This document shows, piece by piece, positions 46,357 through 57,274 of a DNA stretch of 64,000 nt (position 1 is the stretch's first letter; each line of letters starts with the position of its first letter). The stretch spans positions 124,001 through 188,000 of the forward strand of contig NZ_JAENIJ010000003.1 of assembly GCF_016595435.1 (NCBI RefSeq), read 5' to 3'. A program made the translations under genes and the position numbers. The notes beneath the pieces are model-generated. The model did no database searches. It worked only from the letters and a program-made list of their open reading frames with translations, and had not been told where the DNA came from. The stretch comes from Luteolibacter pohnpeiensis (GTDB taxonomy: Bacteria; Verrucomicrobiota; Verrucomicrobiia; Verrucomicrobiales; Akkermansiaceae).

Positions 46357-47058
46357 ATGAAACCCAATCAAGACGAACCATGGGCAACGGCAGAGATCGC
46401 TCTGCTTCCTGCTCTTAAATCCTACGTTGCTGCTCTCGAGCACTTGGTGCCGGGTGCGGTGAAATGCCACACAGGACCCACCGAGACCGAGCCGCAATGT
46501 TCGGCGGACGTCTGGTGCGTAGCCATTCCAGCGGAGGCGTCGGGGATGAGCATCTTTGTCAAAGTAAACCCAACTCTTGCCGCGAAATCCGGTTCACCGC
46601 CGCCATTTTGGCGGAAGCCGGTGGTCCTGCGTATGCTGGCCGCAATGGAACGCAACATGACTGGCCGCGGCAAACTTCGCAAATGGCCGGATGCCGTGCG
46701 GATCGCATGGAGCCTGATTTCTCAACATCCGAAGCGCGCGATGAGCCTCGGTGAACTTGCCGCTGTTCTCAAGCTGTCAGCCGGATACCTCGGAGCACGG
46801 ATCGAGGAAATTCTCGGTAGCACCTTTCGTTGCCTGCTGCGCGATGAGCGGATTTCCGTCGCTTGCGAATCGCTGCTTTCGACCGATCTGCGAATCTCGG
46901 AAATTGCGGATCATCTCGGTGGCCAATCACTGTCCCAGTTCAACCGGAACTTCTCTGCGGCGACCGGCCTAACGCCTCGATCGTATCGACGAGAATTCGG
47001 CGGCCGCAAAAGCTACGACCTGGACGATCTCACTCATGCGGTTCAGAAGAATCTTTGA
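46357..47058 (+). CDS. AraC-family transcriptional regulator
   Basis: A 233-residue DNA-binding protein from the ATG at 46357 (MKPNQDEPWATAEIALLPAL). The C-terminal 100 residues hold the two helix-turn-helix units of AraC proteins: MSLGELAAVLKLSAGYLGAR, and LRISEIADHLGGQSLSQFNR followed by NFSAATGLTPRSYRREF. The N-terminal 125 residues form an uncharacterised sensor domain with a hydrophobic core and Cys residues (CHTGPTETEPQCSADVWCVA). Its 3' end overlaps the heme-oxygenase gene convergently by 29 bp. A role in controlling the bilin/phytochrome module is suggested only by position. Confidence 0.85.
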   Translation: MKPNQDEPWATAEIALLPALKSYVAALEHLVPGAVKCHTGPTETEPQCSADVWCVAIPAEASGMSIFVKVNPTLAAKSGSPPPFWRKPVVLRMLAAMERNMTGRGKLRKWPDAVRIAWSLISQHPKRAMSLGELAAVLKLSAGYLGARIEEILGSTFRCLLRDERISVACESLLSTDLRISEIADHLGGQSLSQFNRNFSAATGLTPRSYRREFGGRKSYDLDDLTHAVQKNL

Positions 47059-47632
47059 GTTTCGTCGCGAGTTGATCGAAGCGATTGCGAAACCATCGGA
47101 AAGTTTCGACAGCTGTCCCTGCGGCTAACTTCAAGTCCTCTTGATGGGTCACCGTTTTGTTCAACCAAGTGACAAAGCTTGCCCAGTTTGGCATGGTGTC
47201 GCTGCCATAGCCGGTAAAGAACCGGTGGTTTTCGCCTGGGAGGTGACCCAGCTTGCGCGACAAGTGCATCCCGCCGAGCGATGAACCTTCGACCACATAC
47301 ATCACACCTGCAAACTGCGCATGATTGAGTTTCGAAGGTTGATAAAACTTTGATCCAATCAAAACCTTAGTAGAACCCAGTTGATCAAGATCCTCTTCCA
47401 GCCAGGATGTTCTGCAAAATCGGAAACTGCCGAGATCCCTTACCCATTCTGGATAAGTGGTTTCCGCGTGAGTTTCCCATGATTGGAAAAACGCAAGGTA
47501 TTCCTCTAACAGGTGCCGATAGGAATCAATCGTGATGGTTCCATCGGCCAATTGTCGAACCAGCGGGCTATCATCTAACAATTGATGTTCCGGAGCGGTC
47601 GCATTTTTGAGGAATTCCCTTGCTTGTATCAT
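47030..47632 (-). CDS. bphO: Biliverdin-producing heme oxygenase
   Basis: A 200-residue cytosolic enzyme cleaving heme to biliverdin, iron and CO. The preferred ATG is at 47632 (MIQAREFLKNATAPEHQLLD), placing the proximal heme ligand at His16; a longer reading from 47674 would add a charged leader. YVVEGSSLGGMHLSRKLG is the conserved distal-helix block, and the C-terminal helix (ETFRWFRNRFDQLA) is typical of BphO. It is divergent from the phytochrome gene, with 68 bp between starts. Making the chromophore next to its receptor is the classical bphO-bphP arrangement. Confidence 0.93.
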   Translation of the reverse strand: MIQAREFLKNATAPEHQLLDDSPLVRQLADGTITIDSYRHLLEEYLAFFQSWETHAETTYPEWVRDLGSFRFCRTSWLEEDLDQLGSTKVLIGSKFYQPSKLNHAQFAGVMYVVEGSSLGGMHLSRKLGHLPGENHRFFTGYGSDTMPNWASFVTWLNKTVTHQEDLKLAAGTAVETFRWFRNRFDQLATKLKDSSEPHE

Positions 47633-47656
47633 GTGCGTTCTTCTCTTTTCCTTCTC

Positions 47657-47685
47657 TTCATGCCCGTATCGCAAGTGCGTATAAT
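47657..47685 (+). promoter_or_regulatory. Probable bphP promoter
   Basis: A perfect TATAAT -10 element (47680-47685) is preceded, with 17-bp spacing, by TTCATG (47657-47662, 3 of 6 matches to the -35 consensus). Expected transcription would start about 47692, leaving roughly 9 nt before the bphP ATG and no Shine-Dalgarno. A nearly leaderless message is therefore possible. Confidence 0.5.
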
Positions 47686-47700
47686 CGCTTTTTTCCCATC

Positions 47701-49563
47701 ATGCTAAATACTACCGAATGGGAGCAGGCCCTTCAAAACTGTGCGGACGAAAAAATCCAGCTGATCGGCCAAGTCCAGGCGAACTCGGTTTTGATTGCGA
47801 TCGATGTGGAAGCGGACCGCTTTAAATACCTGTCTGCCAATGCATCAGCGGTGCTTGGCCCTGATACGTTTTTCGAAGCAAGTCCGGTCGGTGTTTTCGG
47901 TGAAGGGCAAATTTCAATGTTCCATCGGCGGGCTCGATCATGGCGCGGCAGGGGCCCTCGGATGGTGGAAATTCTCTTCCCCTATGGCCCTCCAGTTCCT
48001 GGTTGGGTCCATGTCCGCGATGGTCTTTTGATTCTGGAAACCGAATTGAAGTCCAATGTAGAGGAGGCTCATCAGGAACAGGATCCCGACGATTGGGAGG
48101 ACGCGATGCGCGACGGGTTCCATCGCGTGGAAATTTGCACCGATCTAGCGTCCAAGCTCAAGGCAGTGGCGACGGAAGTCTGGAAGCTCGGGAATTTTGA
48201 CCGGGTGATGATTTATCAATTTCTGCCGGATGATACCGGCGAGGTCGTTGCGGAAGAAGTTCGTGACGATTGGGAGCCTTATTTTGGATTGCGTTATCCG
48301 GCGTCTGATATTCCCCCTCAGGCCAGAGCGCTGTTTCTGGAAAATGATATCCGTCTGATCAACCACGTCGTGGGTGAGCCGGTGCCCTTGCTCTCGGCAG
48401 CGGATGTGAACGATAAGCCTCTGGACCTGTCGCTGTGCCGTTACCGCCAGCCTGCTGCCGTTCATCTGGAATACCTCCGCAATATGGGGGTGGGCGGAAG
48501 TTTTGTGAGTGCCATCATTTCAGAGGGGAAACTCTGGGGACTGATTTCCTGCCATCACGGCACCGGGCTTCACTTGAGCGCGGTGAGACAAATGCAACTT
48601 TCGGCCCTGACGACTCACTTGGCTTTGGAGCTGAGTGGAATGGCTCGCGAGCTGCGGCTGCGAGACGAACTGGCCGGCGCGCGGATCGCGAACAAGCTGA
48701 TCCAGTGCGTGACCATGACGGACGATTGGGCATCGGTGCTGTTGTCCATGTCTGGAGACCTTTGCCAGTTGCTGCACGCCGATGGAATGTCGCTGCACTT
48801 CCAGGACCAGACCTATTCTTCCGGCTTGGTGCCAGATCCTGGCGCGGTCGCGGCCTTGGCAAAAAGCGGCATGGAACGGACAGGAAGCACGCCGATCACC
48901 TACCAACGGATACCCGATGACAAGGCGACCATTGCTCTTCCACCAGAAATTGGTGGCTATTTGTTGATCCCGCTTTCCCATTTCCGGGACGATGCGCTGA
49001 TTTTCTTCCGCAAGGAACAGACGGTGAAAATCAAATGGGCGGGAGATCCGGTCAAGGGGCTGGATCGTTCCAGTGGCGCACCCCGACTGAAACCTCGTGC
49101 TTCGTTCGAAGTGTGGCAGGAAACAGTCAGCGGCACCTGCGAGTTGTGGACTCCTGAAGAAGTGAAGCTTTCGATTCAGATTGGTGCGACTCTATCCGAT
49201 GTGGTGATCACCGCGCACCACTTTCGTAAATCCATGGAAGCTCCGGGAGCGATCCGTCACCGGTTGGCCCACGAAAGCAGCGCGGAACCCGTGTTGCTGG
49301 CGGATGAAAGCGGATTCATCGTTTTCCAAAACCACGCAGCCGTTGCCGATCCGATCTTGGGCGGATTGCATTCGCTGGATCATCTGGCTTCACGATTGGA
49401 CCCAGCTGATCAGGAGCAGGTTTCGAACGCGATTCATCAACTCGCCGCAACTGGGCTTGAAATTCGGCTGGACCTCAAAGATGGCCGGTTGGAAGTGACC
49501 TGCCTGATCGAAGACGAGCGTTTGGTCGGTTATAGCATCCGCCTGGTTCAAGTGACCGGCTGA
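47701..49563 (+). CDS. bphP: Bacteriophytochrome photosensory core with C-terminal PAS-like domain and no kinase
   Basis: A 620-residue red/far-red photoreceptor from the ATG at 47701. Residues about 1-120 are the N-terminal PAS domain. Cys14 (QNCADEKIQLIG) sits where bacteriophytochromes attach biliverdin. The GAF domain (about 135-310) has RYPASDIPPQARALF with Asp203 and LWGLISCHHGTG with His285/286. The PHY domain (about 320-510) has IKWAGDP and PRASFEVWQE in the tongue. The last 95 residues look like a second PAS domain. No histidine-kinase, GGDEF or other output domain follows. It is therefore a light sensor that must signal through a partner. It is divergent from bphO. Confidence 0.93.
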   Translation: MLNTTEWEQALQNCADEKIQLIGQVQANSVLIAIDVEADRFKYLSANASAVLGPDTFFEASPVGVFGEGQISMFHRRARSWRGRGPRMVEILFPYGPPVPGWVHVRDGLLILETELKSNVEEAHQEQDPDDWEDAMRDGFHRVEICTDLASKLKAVATEVWKLGNFDRVMIYQFLPDDTGEVVAEEVRDDWEPYFGLRYPASDIPPQARALFLENDIRLINHVVGEPVPLLSAADVNDKPLDLSLCRYRQPAAVHLEYLRNMGVGGSFVSAIISEGKLWGLISCHHGTGLHLSAVRQMQLSALTTHLALELSGMARELRLRDELAGARIANKLIQCVTMTDDWASVLLSMSGDLCQLLHADGMSLHFQDQTYSSGLVPDPGAVAALAKSGMERTGSTPITYQRIPDDKATIALPPEIGGYLLIPLSHFRDDALIFFRKEQTVKIKWAGDPVKGLDRSSGAPRLKPRASFEVWQETVSGTCELWTPEEVKLSIQIGATLSDVVITAHHFRKSMEAPGAIRHRLAHESSAEPVLLADESGFIVFQNHAAVADPILGGLHSLDHLASRLDPADQEQVSNAIHQLAATGLEIRLDLKDGRLEVTCLIEDERLVGYSIRLVQVTG

Positions 49564-50282: not shown

Positions 50283-51749
50283 TCAGGCGAGGTAGCGCTG
50301 CGTGAGATGGGCAAGGTAATCTTCTGGAGATGGAGCCTTGCCCGTGGCTTGCTTCATCAAATCGGCTGGATCAAGCGTTGCTCCAAAAACGTGAACCGAA
50401 TCACGCAACCACTTGAGCAGCGGGGCGTAATCGGCGCGATCGGTCGCGGCGGCGATTTCCGGATTCTTCCGGGCTGCGGCGAACAACTGCGCCGCATTGA
50501 GATTGCCGAGTGAGTAAGTCGAGAAATAGCCGAGTCCGCCCATCGACCAATGGATGTCCTGCAGGCACCCATGCCGATCATCGGGCGGAACAAATCCGAA
50601 CAGCTCCTCGAAGCTAGCATTCCAGGCTGCGGGGACATCTTTCACCTCCAGCTCACCACGAACCAGGCGGCGCTCCAAACCAAAGCGCAGGATGATGTGA
50701 AGATCGTAAGTCGCTTCGTCAGCTTCCACACGGATGGGGGAGAATTCGGCCCGGCGCACGTGGTTGAGGAAGCTTTCCAGCGGGTAGCTAGCGAGTTGTG
50801 GGAAAATTTCCTGAGCGACTGGATACCATTGGTTCCAGAATGCGTCGGACCGGCCCACATGGTTTTCCCAAAGCCGGGATTGGGATTCGTGAATGCCTAA
50901 CGACACGGAAGAGCCCGACGGCAGGCCGAAATCTTCACCCGGGATGCCTTGTTCGTAGAGCCCGTGGCCGGCTTCATGCAAAACGCCGAACAGGGACGAA
51001 GTGAAATCCTCCAGATTATAGCGCGTGGTCAAACGCACGTCCGATGGGCCAAGCGTGGTGCAGAACGGGTGAGTGGTGGTGTCGATCCGACCCGCGCTGA
51101 AGTCGAACCCAACCGCTTCCGCGACCTGGCGATTCAAGTTCATCTGGCCTTCGATGGAATACGGCCCGGCTGGAAGTGGAACAGCCTTCGCTTTGGAAAT
51201 TTCCACCGCTTTGGCTGCGATGGAACTCAGTTGTGGCCTTAAATCATCGAACAGAGAAGCAACCGCAGCGGTGCTGGTCGCACGTTCGTAGCCATCTAAC
51301 AAAGCGTCGTAAGGCTCGTTTTCGTAGCCCCAAAGTTCGGCCTTTTCGCGGGCCAAGGCGACGAGCTTCGACAAATGCGGGGCGAAGGAAGCGAAGTCGT
51401 TATTTTTCCGGGCCTCGGCCCACGCGTGCATGCCGAGGGAGGTCGCTTCGGATTCGCGGGCGACGAGTTCGACCGGTAATTTCGTGGCGCGATCAAACTC
51501 ACGGCGCAGCTCACGCAAGTTGGCGGTGAGTTTCGCATCGGTGCCGGTGTTGGCCGCTTCGGCGTCTTCGAGATCTTTTTTCCAAGCATCAGAGGTTGCC
51601 AATTCGTGCGCTCGGGAGGACAGCCAGGAAAGTTGAGCCGCACGGTGGGTCGCGGCGGCGTCAGGCATGTAGGTTTCCTGATCCCAGCCCAAGGCGGAGG
51701 AGGCGGAGCTGATCACGGCGTGTTCGCGTGCTTTCTCGAAGATCGACAT
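50283..51749 (-). CDS. Thermostable-type carboxypeptidase (M32, Taq family)
   Basis: A 488-residue metallopeptidase from the ATG at 51749 (MSIFEKAREHAVISSASSAL). Upstream in-frame codons are not conserved. The catalytic zinc motif is VLHEAGHGLYEQ with HEAGH at residues 258-262, and the third-ligand region GIHESQSRLWENHVGRS is present. DPADLMKQATGKAPSPEDYL near the end is also typical of M32. It removes C-terminal residues with broad specificity in the cytosol. It follows modB on the same strand by 52 bp but is not part of the transport machinery. Confidence 0.94.
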   Translation of the reverse strand: MSIFEKAREHAVISSASSALGWDQETYMPDAAATHRAAQLSWLSSRAHELATSDAWKKDLEDAEAANTGTDAKLTANLRELRREFDRATKLPVELVARESEATSLGMHAWAEARKNNDFASFAPHLSKLVALAREKAELWGYENEPYDALLDGYERATSTAAVASLFDDLRPQLSSIAAKAVEISKAKAVPLPAGPYSIEGQMNLNRQVAEAVGFDFSAGRIDTTTHPFCTTLGPSDVRLTTRYNLEDFTSSLFGVLHEAGHGLYEQGIPGEDFGLPSGSSVSLGIHESQSRLWENHVGRSDAFWNQWYPVAQEIFPQLASYPLESFLNHVRRAEFSPIRVEADEATYDLHIILRFGLERRLVRGELEVKDVPAAWNASFEELFGFVPPDDRHGCLQDIHWSMGGLGYFSTYSLGNLNAAQLFAAARKNPEIAAATDRADYAPLLKWLRDSVHVFGATLDPADLMKQATGKAPSPEDYLAHLTQRYLA

Positions 51750-51801: not shown

Positions 51802-52479
51802 TCAGAGGGACCGCCGCGAGGATCGACCCACCAAACGGGAGGACAGCCAGATTGCCGCGAAAGCGACGAGGCCCGAGAGCCCGGCGAGCCAGAGCGCGCG
51901 CGAGTCATCCCCAGTCTGGACGCTGCGGTAAATTGCCAGAGGCAAGGTTTCCGTGACTCCTGGAATGAATCCGGCCACCATCACCGTTGCGCCAAATTCA
52001 CCCAGCGCGCGGGCGAAAGCTAACAGAATCCCCGCGGAAATCCCGCGCCGGGCGAGGGGAATGGTGATCAGGAAAAAAACTTTGCAAGGTGAGCGTCCAA
52101 GGTTGGCACCGGCTTCTTCCAGATAAGACGGGATTTCTTCAAACGCGGTGCGAATGGATCGGACCAGTAACGGAAAAACCATGACTGCCAGGGCGATCAC
52201 GACAGCTTTCCAGGTGAAGACGACATCGATTTCAAAGCTCCGATGCAGCCAGCCGCCGATCGGGCCGTTGCGTCCGAGAAGCTTGAGCAGCAGCAGGCCG
52301 ATTGCGACCGGTGGCATCACCAACGGCAGGCTGGCGAGCGTTTCTACCAAAGATTTGCCGAACCACTCTCGCCGGGCTAACAGCCATGAGAGGGCGATGG
52401 CGAATGGAAGCGCGATGGCCACCGCTAGTGCGGAAGCGCCCATGGTGAGGAAAACGATGTGCCAGTCGCCGCTTTTCAT
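51802..52479 (-). CDS. modB: Molybdate ABC transporter permease ModB
   Basis: A 225-residue inner-membrane permease with about five helices (ASALAVAIALPFAIALSWLL; SLPLVMPPVAIGLLLLKLLG; VIALAVMVFPLLVRSIRTAF). The EAA cytoplasmic loop that contacts the ATPase is EEAGANLGRSPCKVFFLITI, then PLARRGISAGILLAFARALG and EFGATVMVAGFIPG, all typical of ModB. It should import molybdate or tungstate delivered by ModA. Its start overlaps the modA stop by 4 bp. No modC ATPase gene follows; the next gene is an M32 carboxypeptidase. Confidence 0.93.
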   Translation of the reverse strand: MKSGDWHIVFLTMGASALAVAIALPFAIALSWLLARREWFGKSLVETLASLPLVMPPVAIGLLLLKLLGRNGPIGGWLHRSFEIDVVFTWKAVVIALAVMVFPLLVRSIRTAFEEIPSYLEEAGANLGRSPCKVFFLITIPLARRGISAGILLAFARALGEFGATVMVAGFIPGVTETLPLAIYRSVQTGDDSRALWLAGLSGLVAFAAIWLSSRLVGRSSRRSL

Positions 52480-53231
52480 GGTTCGGCGAGCGTGACGCTG
52501 AATCCGAATTTCTTGAAAATTTCCACGGCGGCAGGGGTTTGCAGAAACTTGATGAACTCACGGGCTGCAGCCGATTGTGAGGAGGATTTGCAAACCGCGA
52601 TCGGGTAACGGATTTCCGGGGCATCTTCAGCTGGAACTTTATAAACGACGCGGACCTTGTTAGAGATCATCGCATCGGTTTGATAGACCACCCCGGCGTC
52701 GACATTGCCACTGGCGACGGCGGCGAGTGCGCCGCGCACATTTTCCAGAGCGATGACTTTCGGCGCGACTTTTCCCCACAGTTTTTGCTGCTCCAGCCAC
52801 TTGCGGGTATAAACTCCGGCGGGAACGGCGGCGGGATCCCCGAGCGCCAGTCGTTTCAGTTTTGAAGATGCCAGAGTCTCAGCGGAATCCATGGTTAGGT
52901 GACTTTCATTAGGCACGATCACCACCAATCGGTTCGCCAAAAGTGCGGTAATGCTGGAGTCCAGCAGCAGCCCTTTTGCCTTCAGCCCATTCATCGTGGC
53001 CTCGTCGGCTGAAAAGAACAGATCGCAGGGAGCCCCGGCTTCGATTTGGCGAGCGAGAACGTTTGATCCGCCAAAGTTGAGTTGGATTTCTCCGCCCGCG
53101 GCCTTTTCATGCAGCTTCGAAATCTCCGTCATGACATCGCTCAAGCTGGCGGCAGCGGAAATCCGCAATGCATCGGCTTGTGCCGTGCTGAGCAATACAA
53201 TGGCGAGAAAAACTCGAATAAGCAGTTTCAT
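52476..53231 (-). CDS. modA: Molybdate-binding periplasmic protein ModA
   Basis: A 251-residue exported protein with signal peptide KLLIRVFLAIVLLSTAQA from the ATG at 53231. Ligand-binding features of ModA are visible: ISAAASLSDVMTEISKLHEK, FNFGGSNVLARQIEAG-like (LNFGGSNVLARQIEAGAPCD) and the Ser/Ala/Tyr segment DAGVVYQTDAMISNK. VPAGVYTRKWLEQQKLW is also diagnostic. It captures molybdate or tungstate in the periplasm. Its start overlaps the preceding gene by 4 bp and its stop overlaps modB by 4 bp. Confidence 0.94.
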   Translation of the reverse strand: MKLLIRVFLAIVLLSTAQADALRISAAASLSDVMTEISKLHEKAAGGEIQLNFGGSNVLARQIEAGAPCDLFFSADEATMNGLKAKGLLLDSSITALLANRLVVIVPNESHLTMDSAETLASSKLKRLALGDPAAVPAGVYTRKWLEQQKLWGKVAPKVIALENVRGALAAVASGNVDAGVVYQTDAMISNKVRVVYKVPAEDAPEIRYPIAVCKSSSQSAAAREFIKFLQTPAAVEIFKKFGFSVTLAEP

Positions 53232-53713
53232 GAAGCGGGTTCCTGCACCGAGACTAGCACGATCCGTTCGACCTGGCGAATCCAACGCGCGTGCTTGGCA
53301 TCGCCAGGAACAATCAGCATGAGCTTGCCTTCATTACCCTCCAGCGGCTTTCCATCCGCCGCATCTGCAAGAATCACAGGATTGCTGCGATAACTTGCAT
53401 CCAGTTCGGCGAGGGAAAACACAATCTGATAGCCATCGGCCGCGGTGATCAAGACCGCCTCGGTCATTGCTTTGCCACGAAGCTGATCTCCGGCAGGAGC
53501 ACCGATTTTTTCTAACAACTTCGCCATGGCGACCCCGGAATAGCGGTGCTCCTTCTTGTCGTGTCCGGTCGCGGTGAGATCCTCGTGGGGCAGTTTGCTC
53601 CACGCTTCCGCATCCACCGTGATTTTGGATTTTCCTTGTAGAATCAAGGGTTGGGCGTGAACTGCTGCCAGCGTGGCGAGTGCGATTGCTGGGAAAATGA
53701 GTTTAGAATTCAT
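53228..53713 (-). CDS. Small periplasmic sulfite-oxidase/molybdopterin-fold protein
   Basis: A 161-residue exported protein from the ATG at 53713 (signal peptide LIFPAIALATLAAVHA). It matches the small Oxidored_molyb-type fold: HRYSGVAMAKLLEKIGAPAG, LITAADGYQIVFSLAELDAS, VILADAADGKPLEGNEGKLM, and KHARWIRQVERIVLV near the end. No cysteine is present, so it lacks the Cys that coordinates Mo in sulfite-oxidase enzymes. Translation is coupled: it overlaps the receptor gene by 11 bp upstream and modA by 4 bp downstream. A role in handling Mo or Mo-cofactor species between receptor and ModA is inferred from position. Confidence 0.8.
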   Translation of the reverse strand: MNSKLIFPAIALATLAAVHAQPLILQGKSKITVDAEAWSKLPHEDLTATGHDKKEHRYSGVAMAKLLEKIGAPAGDQLRGKAMTEAVLITAADGYQIVFSLAELDASYRSNPVILADAADGKPLEGNEGKLMLIVPGDAKHARWIRQVERIVLVSVQEPAS

Positions 53714-55643
53714 AGCGTAAATTGACAAAATAACTGCGTCCCGGCTCCGGATATCCTTCGTCGAGTTCCTGATTGCGATCGAGCAAATTGGTGACTCCGA
53801 ATCCGAGTGTGGTGTTCTCGGTGAGTTCCAAATTGGTTTTCAGATCAAAACTCATGTAGGAGCCAACCCGCGCTCCCGTGGTCGATGTGGTTCGCGAGTC
53901 CGACCAAGTGAACGATGGGATCAGCGTGACTTTTTCGTGGGGTTTGATGCGGGCAAAAACCAACAAATCGTTCTCCGGGGTTCCCGTTACCGGGATGCTG
54001 GAGTCAGATCGGTTTTGCGCGTCGATCCACGCATAGCGGATTGAGGTTTCGATCTGTTCATTCCATTTCGCATCGAAGGAAAACTCGGCTCCCTTGCGTT
54101 CCACCTCGCCGACGTTCTGGAGTTGGTAAACGCCAGGCGTCACGTTGTCGACTCGCTGGATGGCGTCATCGACCCGGGAGAAAAACAGGCTGGCGTCCCA
54201 GCTGAAGCGTTTCTCCAGGAAATTCCCGGAAAGCCCGAGATCGTAATGCTCGGCAGTCTCCGGGGCGAGATCAGGATTCGGGATCGCCTGCCCCAACCGA
54301 TACGAATAGCGGTCCTTGATGGTGGGGAATCGGCTCTTTTCTGAAAAACCGAGATGCGCGCTCAACTGATCGGAAAATTCCTGCCGCAAGGTGATCTGGG
54401 GGTTCCAGGAATCGGTGGAATCCCCGCCCAGCGAGCTTCCTGTATTGGTATCCACCGCTTCGCGAACATCCCTCCAGTCGTAGCTAACACCAGCTGTTAG
54501 AAAGGTGCCGTGATGGAAATCATGCTCTGCTTCGAGGCCGACCGATGCGGTTTCGTCTTCGAAGTTGTAGTGCGGTGTTCCAGGTTCCCATTCCTCGTGG
54601 TGGTCGAGCTTGTAGTGGATCGCAGTCGCCAATCGGGTTCCGGGAAGAGATTCGTTGGTCAATGTCACCGAGCCACCGGCGGTGTAGTCATCATAGTAGG
54701 AGTCAAACGCGCGGCCGAGCGTTTGTGAATCGTAGCCATCGTTATCGAACGATCTCAGAAGATTTTCGAACCGGTCATAATGGGCTTTGGCCTCGAGGGT
54801 CGTTTCGTGGCCGAGGTAAGTACGAGATAATCCGTAGAAAGTGGTCTTGTCCCACTGTGGCCATTGCCAGTAACGGGTCGGATTGTTGCTCGGATCGTCT
54901 CCTGCGTAGGGAGGATTGCCCTTTTCTCCGCGCTGAATCCAAAAGCCGAACACATGTTCATCGGTAGCGGCGGGAGTCCAGGCGATCCGGCCGGAGGCAC
55001 GCCAGTCTTCGCTGTAAGAGTTTTCCCGGTCGCCGCCATTTTCATTGGCATGCCTTTTGAAATCATCCGACAAGACAAACGCATCTTGTTCGCGATATGA
55101 GAGATCAAGCTGCCAATAGGCTTTTTCATATTTGCCTCCTGCAGCGAGCCGGCTTTGCCAGCCATCGCCACTGAAAGCGCCGAGATCGATCTGACCTTCG
55201 AAGGGTTTCTCGGGACGTCGTGTGACGATGTTGATCAGGCCGCCAAGCGCATTCGGCCCGGCTAGGACCGGACTGATTCCCTTGGCCACTTCGATTTCAG
55301 AATCCGCAGGCAGACTGAACCTGCCAAGGTCGGCATAGCCATCGTATGGAATATAGACCGGGATGCCATCGATGAAAACCGGGACCTGACGCAGGTCGAA
55401 TCCTCGCAGGGTGATGCCGGTTTCCGCCCGATTTCCGGTGCGTTGCAGGCTGGCTCCGGGAATGAGATCGATGGCTTCCGCTAGATCATTTCGTTGGAGG
55501 TCTTCTGCCAGTTGGGAAGAAACGCGGTTGGGATCATCCTGAGATGCCTTGGCGGTGACAATGATTTCGCCCAGTTCTGAGCGGTCGGAATCCTGTGCGT
55601 AGAGTGCCAGCGGAATGAATAAAAACGGAAGCGCAGCCTTCAT
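53703..55643 (-). CDS. TonB-dependent outer-membrane receptor, probable molybdate/Mo-complex importer
   Basis: A 646-residue receptor with signal peptide 1-16 (KAALPFLFIPLALYA). A TonB box-like EIIVTA follows, then a plug domain (about 45-150: IDLIPGASLQRTGNRAETGI, TLRGFDLRQVPVFIDGIPVY, AGPNALGGLINIVTRRPEK). The rest is a 22-strand-type barrel ending in an aromatic strand (RSYFVNLRYEF). TonB/ExbB power import of scarce or large ligands. It heads the overlapping run with the Mo-fold protein, modA and modB, under a ModE-type operator, so the cargo is probably molybdate, tungstate or a chelate of them. Siderophore-type cargo cannot be excluded by sequence alone. Confidence 0.9.
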   Translation of the reverse strand: MKAALPFLFIPLALYAQDSDRSELGEIIVTAKASQDDPNRVSSQLAEDLQRNDLAEAIDLIPGASLQRTGNRAETGITLRGFDLRQVPVFIDGIPVYIPYDGYADLGRFSLPADSEIEVAKGISPVLAGPNALGGLINIVTRRPEKPFEGQIDLGAFSGDGWQSRLAAGGKYEKAYWQLDLSYREQDAFVLSDDFKRHANENGGDRENSYSEDWRASGRIAWTPAATDEHVFGFWIQRGEKGNPPYAGDDPSNNPTRYWQWPQWDKTTFYGLSRTYLGHETTLEAKAHYDRFENLLRSFDNDGYDSQTLGRAFDSYYDDYTAGGSVTLTNESLPGTRLATAIHYKLDHHEEWEPGTPHYNFEDETASVGLEAEHDFHHGTFLTAGVSYDWRDVREAVDTNTGSSLGGDSTDSWNPQITLRQEFSDQLSAHLGFSEKSRFPTIKDRYSYRLGQAIPNPDLAPETAEHYDLGLSGNFLEKRFSWDASLFFSRVDDAIQRVDNVTPGVYQLQNVGEVERKGAEFSFDAKWNEQIETSIRYAWIDAQNRSDSSIPVTGTPENDLLVFARIKPHEKVTLIPSFTWSDSRTTSTTGARVGSYMSFDLKTNLELTENTTLGFGVTNLLDRNQELDEGYPEPGRSYFVNLRYEF

Positions 55644-55664
55644 CAGAAGTTGATGAAAGCGGCT

Positions 55665-55688
55665 CGATATATTTTTTCAAGTATAACG
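55665..55688 (-). promoter_or_regulatory. ModE-box-like operator before the TonB receptor gene
   Basis: A dyad with half-sites CGATAT (55665-55670) and ATAACG (55683-55688) separated by 12 bp, that is CGATAT-N12-ATAACG. The E. coli ModE box as I recall it is CGTTAT-N12-ATAACG, the same half-sites (one mismatch) at the same spacing. It starts 21 bp upstream of the receptor start codon and lies next to the modE-like gene. ModE bound to molybdate would repress the uptake genes. Confidence 0.75.
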
Positions 55689-55703
55689 ATCTCCGAGGCG
55701 TCT

Positions 55704-56042
55704 TCAGCTCATGAGGGCCTTGAGTTGGTCAAGTTTGGTTGAAACGGCTTTTTCCGCTGAGATTACCGACTGTTGATAGAGCGAGAGCACCATTTCACCG
55801 GTGGCAGTGAGTTGCGCGCCGCCTTGGGCTTTGCCGCCGCGCCGCAATTCGACCAGTGGTTCCTTGAACGTGGCGTTCAGACTTTTGATCATTTTCCAGG
55901 CTTTCATGTATGACATGTCCATGGAGCTTGCGGCGGCGTTGAGACTTCCGAGTTCGGTGATTTTTTCTAACAGCTCCGCTTTGCCGGGACCAAATGATAG
56001 ATCGCCAGAGAAGATGAGACGAATGGGACAATCCGGGTTCAT
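55704..56042 (-). CDS. modE: ModE-type winged-helix regulator (DNA-binding domain only)
   Basis: A 112-residue DNA-binding protein from the ATG at 56042 (MNPDCPIRLIFSGDLSFGPG). A GTG 27 bp earlier would overlap the preceding gene. The LysR-like winged helix of ModE is visible: GPGKAELLEKITELGSLNAA, then ASSMDMSYMKAWKMIKSLNA, FKEPLVELRRGGKAQGGAQL, TATGEMVLSLYQQ. The C-terminal TOBE molybdate-binding domains of E. coli ModE are absent, as in many short ModE proteins, so how molybdate is sensed is unclear. It lies 5 bp after the zinc-ribbon gene and upstream of the molybdate-type uptake genes. Confidence 0.9.
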   Translation of the reverse strand: MNPDCPIRLIFSGDLSFGPGKAELLEKITELGSLNAAASSMDMSYMKAWKMIKSLNATFKEPLVELRRGGKAQGGAQLTATGEMVLSLYQQSVISAEKAVSTKLDQLKALMS

Positions 56043-56047
56043 ATAGA

Positions 56048-57274
56048 TCAATCGAGTTTTGGCCACCAATCGTTAGAGAGGATGGAGAGGATTTCCAAAA
56101 ACGATTTCCCGCCATCGGTGGACTGCTTGGCCATGACCAATGTGGGTGAAATGATCACGCCGGATGCGGTGGAATTTTTAATCTGTGAATAAGCTGCGGA
56201 GTCCTTTTTGACGAATGCTTTCTCGCCCGGGCCATTGAGCCGGGTTCGGACGATGTAGGCCGCGAAGTATTCGTTCTCGCGTTGCTCGTCGTCAGGAGGA
56301 ACCGGTTCTAACAATAGATGGAAAGTCCCTTGTTGTCCGGCGGGGCCGTTGACGAATTTTTGGAATAAACTGTCCCGGAGCTCAACGAAGGTTTCCCAAT
56401 CGACCAGCCAGCCGGTCGGGGTTTCCATCACAGGCGTGGGAATTCCGGCAGGGAATTGATCGGTGACGACCTGGAAAATGAAAAGCGTGTTTCCGGTATC
56501 CGGATTCACTTCGGATTGTGGGCTGGAAATGGATTGGTAGTGGATCGGGCCATCCGGGACTTGATGGGAATATGCTTCCATCCGGCTGCGAACTTTCGAG
56601 GCATTGATCACGTAAGCGCTTCTCGCCGCCCAATCGGGGGCTGTTAGAAATGCCTTCAGGGTAGCTTCCGCCTCCGCCGTGATTTTCGGCTTGTCGTCGA
56701 TACCAGGCGGCATGGGTTGTGGAGGCGTTTCGGCAGGCGTTGGTTGAATTTTTGGTTCCAACGGTGGCGTTGCCTGCACCATCGCATTATTGTTATCCAA
56801 CCGAGCATGCTTCGCCGGGGTTGGTTGGTGAATGGGTGGAGATATCGCCAAGGAAGGTGTCAAATATGGCCTTCCGAAGAAGCCTAGCGCGAATCCAAAC
56901 GCAGTGGTTAGAATTCCTCCGAGCAGGAGCAATGGAGCTGCCGAGCGAGTGCGAGCCGGAGTTGATGGCGCTTCTTGAGGAGGCTGGATCGGTGCTGCCG
57001 GCACTTCTCTAACAGGCGGCACGGGGGCGGCCTCTTCAAGTGGAGCGGGAGGCGGCGTTGGCTCTTCCAGAAAAGGCTCGTGTCGGACAATTTGTTTTGG
57101 GGGAGGTGATAAGACCGGCACAAAAGCTTGAGTGGCTGGAGTGCCGTGTTCCGGGTCTGGAGCAATGATTTCCTCCTGGCACATCGGGCAAGGCCCGGCG
57201 GTGGCCGCCATCTCAAGCGGTATCCGCAATACGGCTGAACAAGCTGGGCAGGGAAATTGAATGTATTCAGCCAT
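56048..57274 (-). CDS. Zinc-ribbon membrane protein of unknown function
   Basis: A 408-residue protein. Residues 1-40 are a zinc ribbon (CPACSAVLRIP, then CPMCQEEI), on the cytoplasmic side. A Pro/Glu-rich linker precedes one membrane helix (LLLLGGILTTAFGFALGFFG, about 110-130), then another Pro-rich linker and a globular domain (about 195-400: AFLTAPDWAARSAYVINASK, FIFQVVTDQFPAGIPTPVME, GWLVDWETFVELRDSLFQKF). Similar zinc-ribbon plus TM proteins are common in Verrucomicrobia with no defined role. The modE start follows by 5 bp, so the two may be cotranscribed by chance or function. Confidence 0.65.
   Translation of the reverse strand: MAEYIQFPCPACSAVLRIPLEMAATAGPCPMCQEEIIAPDPEHGTPATQAFVPVLSPPPKQIVRHEPFLEEPTPPPAPLEEAAPVPPVREVPAAPIQPPQEAPSTPARTRSAAPLLLLGGILTTAFGFALGFFGRPYLTPSLAISPPIHQPTPAKHARLDNNNAMVQATPPLEPKIQPTPAETPPQPMPPGIDDKPKITAEAEATLKAFLTAPDWAARSAYVINASKVRSRMEAYSHQVPDGPIHYQSISSPQSEVNPDTGNTLFIFQVVTDQFPAGIPTPVMETPTGWLVDWETFVELRDSLFQKFVNGPAGQQGTFHLLLEPVPPDDEQRENEYFAAYIVRTRLNGPGEKAFVKKDSAAYSQIKNSTASGVIISPTLVMAKQSTDGGKSFLEILSILSNDWWPKLD

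Follow-up and report, generated by a model that had tools for sequence, protein, structure and literature searches.

A candidate ModE-controlled, TonB-dependent molybdenum uptake locus in Luteolibacter pohnpeiensis and its occurrence in other bacteria

A five-gene locus in a window of 64,000 nucleotides from the genome of Luteolibacter pohnpeiensis (contig NZ_JAENIJ010000003.1, positions 124,001 to 188,000 of the forward strand) appears to encode a ModE-controlled, TonB-dependent uptake system for molybdenum, probably in the form of a chelate, that feeds the molybdate transporter components ModA and ModB. We assign this reading a probability of roughly 0.78. It is built on properties that were computed here, i.e., the order of the genes and its recurrence, the co-occurrence of a ModE box with ModE itself, the family to which the receptor belongs and the fold and site residues of a small protein encoded between receptor and ModA. 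The initial annotation of the region had postulated a dedicated, energised outer-membrane step for molybdate, tungstate or a chelate. Such a step is supported by the recurring gene order, by the nearest kin of the receptor and by the ModE box, from which transport itself and the nature of the ligand are inferred.

All five genes are located on the reverse strand. The first encodes a ModE-like regulator of 112 amino acids that consists of a DNA-binding domain only (55704..56042). Its best family is TIGR00637 (74.5 bits, E-value 3.0e-20), the cut-off of which (98.5 bits) is passed in just two of 14 control genomes; the gene starts with ATG, an alternative TTG at 56069 being possible. After a gap of 60 bp follow the genes for a TonB-dependent outer-membrane receptor of 646 amino acids (53703..55643; PF07715 Plug, 1.6e-15; PF00593 barrel, 3.1e-34), a PruR-like small protein of 161 amino acids with a sulfite-oxidase fold (53228..53713; PF00174, Oxidored_molyb, 25.4 bits, cut-off 24), modA for the binding protein of a molybdate ATP-binding cassette (ABC) transporter (52476..53231; TIGR01256, 195.2 bits, cut-off 62.5) and modB for its permease (51802..52479; TIGR02141, 201.7 bits, cut-off 182.6). 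The last four genes overlap by 11 bp (53703-53713), 4 bp (53228-53231) and 4 bp (52476-52479), respectively, exactly as described in the initial annotation. The gene after modB encodes an M32 peptidase (50283-51749) and modC is not present at this position.

The order modE, receptor, small protein, modA, modB was found again in four other genomes (L011, L035, L092 and L093), one of which, Haloferula sp. BvORR071 (L035, with the same coordinates as G286), belongs to the family of the window genome. This rules out that the arrangement is unique to L. pohnpeiensis and confirms the earlier view that a chance neighbourhood is unlikely. Variants of the arrangement were also encountered. In L091 the order is modE, small protein, another gene, receptor, modA and modB; a gene for 416 amino acids in L091 yielded no Pfam match. 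Locus L014 (genome G049) comprises the first four genes only, from modE to modA, and in L089 a divergent modABC cluster adjoins receptor and small protein. At the position in L014 where modB would be expected, integrase/transposase-like sequence was recognized by eye (L014:6500-8720). The set of receptor genomes comprises 22 members, with the genome of loci L010 and L034 (G133) counted once and with G121, whose contig ends inside the receptor (L048), kept outside. In 18 of the 22 the small protein is clustered with the receptor. In G591 its gene is unlinked, in G631 the contig ends, in G525 the receptor is broken, and in G541 a PF00174-like gene follows the receptor at 20 bits, i.e., below the cut-off.

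The receptor gene is preceded by a ModE box, CGATATATTTTTTCAAGTATAACG (55665..55688), that lies 21 bp upstream of the start codon. It forms an inverted repeat and agrees with the Escherichia coli ModE consensus core, CGNTATATA-N6-TATATANCG, as quoted in the accessible text of PMC545781, at 13 of 16 specified positions. Across the window it is the sole match with three or fewer mismatches, and 100 shuffles yielded none. Of the strict palindrome CGWTAT-N12-ATAWCG the 4.67-Mb genome has a single copy, namely this box, and the reversed control pattern does not occur in it. Among the 22 receptor genomes the strict palindrome stands before the receptor in 15 (five of seven in the first set and ten of 15 in the second). 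With regard to whole genomes, a single copy was counted in the window genome (G000) as well as in G063, G068, G133, G286, G238, G277, G378 and G321, two copies in G192, G193, G656 and G525 and three in G100 and G591. G234 has one copy away from the receptor, and the scan of the complete sequences gave none in G049, G078, G242, G315, G541 and G631. In G656, a member of the order of Fibrisoma, the second strict box is near-perfect (C352:366-389); G192 and G193 have their additional strict box away from the receptor. The reversed control pattern was counted 0-2 times per verrucomicrobial genome and 0-3 times per genome of Fibrisoma's order, and the uniqueness of the box is therefore strongest in the Verrucomicrobiota. 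A table of box composition was compiled from 18 sites and leaves aside those of L011, L096, L097, Proteus, Shinella, Methylorubrum, Azospirillum and Paracoccus.

Presence of the box goes along with presence of the regulator. ModE is clearly encoded (E-value 2.5e-15 or better) in 19 of the 22 receptor genomes, the exceptions being G234, with one ModE match of 22.7 bits within a frame of 314 amino acids, and G242 and G315, in which the ModE profile search found no match. According to an earlier rule using all 16 consensus positions, the box was the best site of its locus in 16 of the 22 genomes; L011 (G078) failed by one extra spacer base, G541 and G631 were weak, and L096 and L097 have equal sites elsewhere. 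A half-site rule (CGNTAT plus ATANCG, ten specified positions, spacer of 11-13) was set after the sites had been seen, so that spacer variants are treated alike in the 22 loci, and was applied to all 22 receptor promoters. Under this rule the site before the receptor scores 10/10 in 18 of the ModE-containing genomes and 9/10 in one (G049), and no equal score exists elsewhere in the locus with the exception of one for L049. In the three genomes without ModE the best site before the receptor reaches 7/10, a score found 57-101 times elsewhere. The three genomes are members of a single genus, and in the tree described below their receptors make up one clade, such that the joint absence of box and ModE may represent one loss and not three. 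Conversely, G133 and G591 retain the box even though their modE and receptor genes reside on different contigs. In the latter genome the unlinked small-protein gene (L130:4833-5381), some 27 kb away from the receptor and its box, has a further strict box that ends 6 bp upstream of its start; both genes are thus marked for ModE though neither is linked to modE. The broken receptor of G525 has been cut to an open frame of 138 amino acids behind modE and a box matching 14/16 positions (L098:6147-7032).

The structural model of the window receptor adopts the fold of a TonB receptor (mean predicted local distance difference test score, pLDDT, 72.7; Foldseek E-values to receptors down to 4.3e-28). 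By eye, residues 23-31 (ELGEIIVTA) resemble a TonB box; a loose pattern for such a box matched 24 of 32 relatives, some at implausible positions. Two TonB proteins are encoded in the window genome, as judged from two TonB_C matches above cut-off. An assignment of the receptor to a named NCBIfam receptor type was rejected: 26 families matched, and the best 25 of these 26 all remain below cut-off. A profile derived from seven receptors, with which the best three candidates per genome were scored in the order of the window genome and the best five in that of Fibrisoma, detected the family at E-values of 1e-40 or lower in 15 of 386 genomes of the former, all at 1.3e-252 or better, and in six of 241 genomes of the latter, five at 1.4e-215 or better and the broken one at 3.6e-41. 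Two Fibrisoma genomes, for which 59 and 60 candidates were scored, gave one match each.

Most verrucomicrobial receptors are 45-63% identical to that of the window, compared with 39% for those of Fibrisoma and about 34-35% for those of G133, G063 and G068. A quick maximum-likelihood tree with long outgroup branches placed 32 family members apart from eight other receptors (Shimodaira-Hasegawa-like approximate likelihood ratio test, SH-aLRT, 99) and the window receptor within a clade of Verrucomicrobiota and Bacteroidota (SH-aLRT 97). The receptors of G133, G063 and G068 nest among alphaproteobacterial sequences, which suggests transfer; box and small protein are present in all three. Four plug residues, Arg72, Glu74, Tyr97 and Arg108, are conserved in 31 of 31 family members and in none of the eight other receptors, the incomplete sequence from L097 being omitted from this count and retained in the tree. 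An inspection of the receptor's kin, as recommended in the initial annotation, came out in favour of its proposal, with one qualification. The nearest relatives, those from Verrucomicrobiota, and likewise most of those from Bacteroidota adjoin mod genes, modE or the gene for the small protein. The distant ones (30-38% identity) include loci annotated for iron, and homology alone therefore leaves the ligand unsettled.

The small protein of the window does not contain a single cysteine, and none is conserved among 22 relatives, which makes it impossible that molybdenum is held in the manner of sulfite oxidase. The protein was therefore rejected as a molybdoenzyme, and from the earlier proposal of an additional periplasmic handling protein with a molybdoenzyme fold we retain a PruR-like fold with a Tyr/Trp site. 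The structural model (pLDDT 85.9) has its closest Foldseek matches in PruR, including the complex with neopterin. VIA-align gave Z-scores of 15-16 to PruR (about 15.7) and of up to 17 to sulfite oxidase. When single small proteins were used to search solved structures, one gave nothing and another returned weak sulfite oxidase matches. According to the accessible part of PMC13259868, PruR is devoid of the cofactor cysteine, binds pterins by a Tyr and a Trp residue, carries Asn or Asp two residues before that Tyr, probably cannot accommodate the larger cofactor in its site and signals together with DcpA or sensor kinases. All 22 small proteins compared have Asp93, Tyr95 and Trp144. In an alignment with two PruR-like proteins linked to kinases (L134 and L135), from which a longer protein (L136) was left out, these residues correspond to Asn, Tyr and Trp, respectively. 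In a relative from Deinococcus, Tyr replaces the Trp of the site.

Among 23 small-protein loci retrieved by a scan of the genome collection, 15 have the receptor or modA/modB adjoining (tblastn). In Mucilaginibacter (L040) the small protein is encoded between MobA/MobB-type and modABC-type genes, after a molybdenum aldehyde oxidoreductase. A locus from Acidobacteriota (L039:4165-11229) starts with a TonB-linked barrel (OMP_b-brl_4, CarboxypepD_reg), which we take to be of the Oar type, followed by small protein, modA, modB and modC; this suggests a second recruitment of a TonB-linked barrel to a molybdenum locus. In Deinococcus psychrotolerans (L117:4868-7238) genes for ModA, a TOBE protein, the small protein and an ABC permease stand in a row and a receptor is not among them. 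Given its presence in these mod operons, from which a receptor of the window's family is absent, a role of the small protein solely as partner of that receptor was set aside.

A tblastn search of plasmid records revealed more distant relatives, which align with more than 90% of the receptor length at 30-38% identity, and ten organisms were inspected. On a plasmid of Pseudomonas aeruginosa a box matching 14/16 positions precedes the receptor and an overlapping small-protein gene, after which moaA and narIJHG follow on the other strand. Boxes of 14-15/16 lie upstream of the receptor in Shinella, Methylorubrum and Proteus. Proteus and Shinella have a second box near a gene resembling, by eye, those for ABC binding proteins, the two boxes of Proteus mirabilis (L119) scoring 14/16 and 15/16. 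In two strains of Azospirillum a 12/16 box is located before genes for a binding protein, a di-haem oxidoreductase, the receptor and TonB, and Paracoccus has an 11/16 site. The E. coli locus (L118:2344-8818) encodes a binding protein, a permease, an ATPase, a methyltransferase, ModD (annotated modD) and, as the last gene, the receptor; a 15/16 ModE box lies 24 bp upstream of the first gene. Of 5426 complete E. coli genomes, 2094 contain at least 80% of this stretch. A search with its 65-bp start region gave 1841 genomes, a lower bound because of the short query. For these genes, prrA-modD-yc73-fepC, a function in iron uptake is proposed in the accessible parts of PMC1890555 and PMC8046923. In Bacteroidota and Alphaproteobacteria, genes for di-haem cytochrome c peroxidases (CCP_MauG) or di-haem oxidoreductases occur near the receptor (L094:2700-3791, L095:4854-5987, L121:4073-5077, L111:10442-11335, L115:5273-6139 and L112:5419-6852). 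These proteins possibly oxidize a ligand in the periplasm.

From the features of the locus we infer that ModE acts as a repressor, that molybdenum is the substrate and is taken up as a chelate, and that the small protein has its place in the periplasm. With sufficient molybdenum, ModE would bind to the box and repress receptor, small protein, modA and modB; when molybdenum becomes scarce, the operon would open. The TonB-energised receptor would then draw a molybdenum species across the outer membrane, in all likelihood chelated molybdate and not the free ion. In the periplasm the PruR-like protein could bind an organic, pterin-like ligand or aid release of the metal, and ModA and ModB would move molybdate inward with the help of an ATPase encoded elsewhere. 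Among the ligands originally envisaged, we favour a chelate over free molybdate for three reasons: the substrates of TonB receptors are usually bulky, the E. coli version of the locus includes a siderophore-type binding protein (PF01497), and the receptor often has a pterin-site protein or a di-haem peroxidase nearby. Uptake of chelated molybdenum has a precedent, as Azotobacter takes up the metal as catechol complexes. Matches to PF00384, a family that also has other members, were obtained in three reading frames of the window genome and suggest that molybdopterin enzymes are encoded there. Elsewhere in the window (47030-49563) there is a gene for haem oxygenase (PF01126) and, opposite to it, one that by eye resembles those for bacteriophytochromes.

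Several observations weigh against such a function. The short window ModE does not contain a molybdate-binding (TOBE/Mop) domain, and the profile search of the window genome found no PF03459 (TOBE), a domain matched in 12 of 14 control genomes. In addition, a ModC could not be assigned, the best TIGR02142 match of the genome reaching 196 bits compared with a cut-off of 285. This cut-off is attained in one of the 14 control genomes, and ATPases of real mod operons score 186-220; since 13 of the 14 controls miss it as well, absence of ModC cannot be derived from it. The best match to the ModC model (L019) carries a TOBE_2 domain and adjoins a different permease, and another locus (L020) comprises two permease stretches and one ATPase, of the sulfate type by eye. 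The genome assembly consists of 254 contigs at 98.8% completeness, and gaps are therefore possible. The system is also patchy, the small protein having been detected in nine of 145 relatives, in one of them weakly and without the receptor, and in eight of the 23 small-protein loci tblastn detected no receptor and no modA/modB within the stretch examined. A single strict site is weaker evidence in Bacteroidota, where up to three reversed control sites occur per genome. Among the distant receptor loci, those of Bartonella, Sphingomonas and Novosphingobium do not have a clear ModE box, and relatives in Bartonella, Paracoccus and E. coli adjoin ABC genes annotated as iron uptake. Pseudomonas provides the sole proteobacterial receptor locus examined that has the small protein; tblastn found none in L111-L115 and L118-L122, which include the E. 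coli, Proteus and alphaproteobacterial loci, and receptor family and small protein are therefore not strictly tied to each other.

A broader version of the proposal, speculative and on balance improbable, holds that the receptor family, which extends over Verrucomicrobiota, Bacteroidota, Pseudomonas and E. coli, imports an organic molybdenum complex, a "molybdophore", which in the branch of the window would be pterin-based, with the PruR-like protein stripping off or holding the pterin and molybdate passing to ModAB. If this were true, these bacteria would salvage molybdenum from cofactor that has been released or from a chelator of the pterin type. Pterin salvage as such, in which molybdopterin, breakdown products of the cofactor or a molybdenum-pterin complex would enter, be bound by the PruR-like protein and release molybdate to ModA, is unlikely in our view. 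It draws on the PruR fold with its aligned Tyr/Trp site and on the company of the small protein, which adjoins the receptor or modA/modB in most of its loci and moaA and nar genes in Pseudomonas. However, the shortened site of PruR is described in the accessible text of PMC13259868 as likely unable to hold the larger cofactor, none of the five window genes is pterin-processing according to profile matches, and the receptor loci of E. coli, Proteus and Alphaproteobacteria manage without a detectable small protein (tblastn).

We regard it as distinctly improbable that the receptor imports a chelate of iron or another metal and is under ModE control on account of the iron requirement of molybdoenzymes or of competition by molybdate for catechol siderophores. 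The iron annotations next to distant relatives, the published proposal for the E. coli cluster and the presence of iron-siderophore receptors among the structural neighbours would be in line with it. Yet these iron labels are annotations and proposals, and the E. coli operon combines its 15/16 ModE box with an annotated modD. Moreover, the close relatives of the window receptor adjoin modA/modB or modE and not iron ABC genes, and receptor genomes without ModE are also without the box. That the system serves tungstate and not molybdate is very doubtful. The sole point in favour is that ModA-type proteins commonly bind both oxyanions, while ModA and ModB of the window, both above the curated molybdate cut-offs, fall far below those for WtpA, WtpB and TupB, and partner genes elsewhere include those for nitrate reductase and molybdenum cofactor synthesis. 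Finally, a role of receptor and PruR-like protein in signal transduction instead of uptake, conceivable because PruR elsewhere signals with DcpA or sensor kinases (accessible text of PMC13259868; pairs in L134 and L135), can be virtually dismissed, as the five genes do not include one for a kinase or a DcpA-type protein and the small-protein gene overlaps those for receptor and ModA.

Uptake of metals by TonB-dependent receptors is well known; here molybdenum would be the controlled metal. Porins are generally regarded as the route by which molybdate passes the outer membrane. In the accessible parts of the open-licence literature, a TonB receptor tied to ModE or to molybdate uptake was not found; earlier surveys of ModE elements may list receptor genes. 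If molybdenum is indeed the substrate, an active outer-membrane route would exist for a scarce metal that is needed in nitrate reduction, nitrogen fixation and purine use, and an operon present in more than a third of complete E. coli genomes would move from proposed iron uptake to molybdenum. Small proteins annotated as "molybdopterin-dependent oxidoreductase" would gain a concrete and testable role.

Compared with the E. coli-type ModABC/ModE system, the window locus shares modA and modB above their cut-offs, a ModE-type DNA-binding protein and an E. coli-type box. It differs by the additional TonB-dependent receptor and PruR-like protein, by the lack of an adjacent modC and by a ModE without the molybdate-binding domain. 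With OprC, PqqU, FepA and BtuB the receptor has the Plug and barrel fold in common, at 14-19% identity among the 50 structural matches listed, but the window family is distinguished by its ModE box, the mod genes and its own plug residues; in the tree it was grouped apart from eight other receptors, with OprC, PqqU, FepA and BtuB outside that tree. The small protein resembles PruR in its sulfite-oxidase fold, its size, the absence of the cofactor cysteine and the aligned Tyr and Trp of the pterin site. Unlike PruR, it does not have DcpA or a sensor kinase as its partner, carries Asp in place of the site Asn (as in some PruR groups) and is linked to molybdenum genes, its neighbours being receptor and modA. 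The E. coli prrA-modD-yc73-fepC cluster encodes a member of the same receptor family (31% identity over 93%) downstream of a ModE box, but has a siderophore-type binding protein (PF01497), other ABC genes, a methyltransferase and ModD in place of ModAB, does not contain the small protein by tblastn and is the one for which iron uptake has been proposed in print. A dedicated outer-membrane partner for molybdate is also a feature of the type VI secretion system-ModA-IcmP route of P. aeruginosa (PMC8602904), in the accessible description of which, in contrast to the locus of L. pohnpeiensis, no TonB receptor is named.

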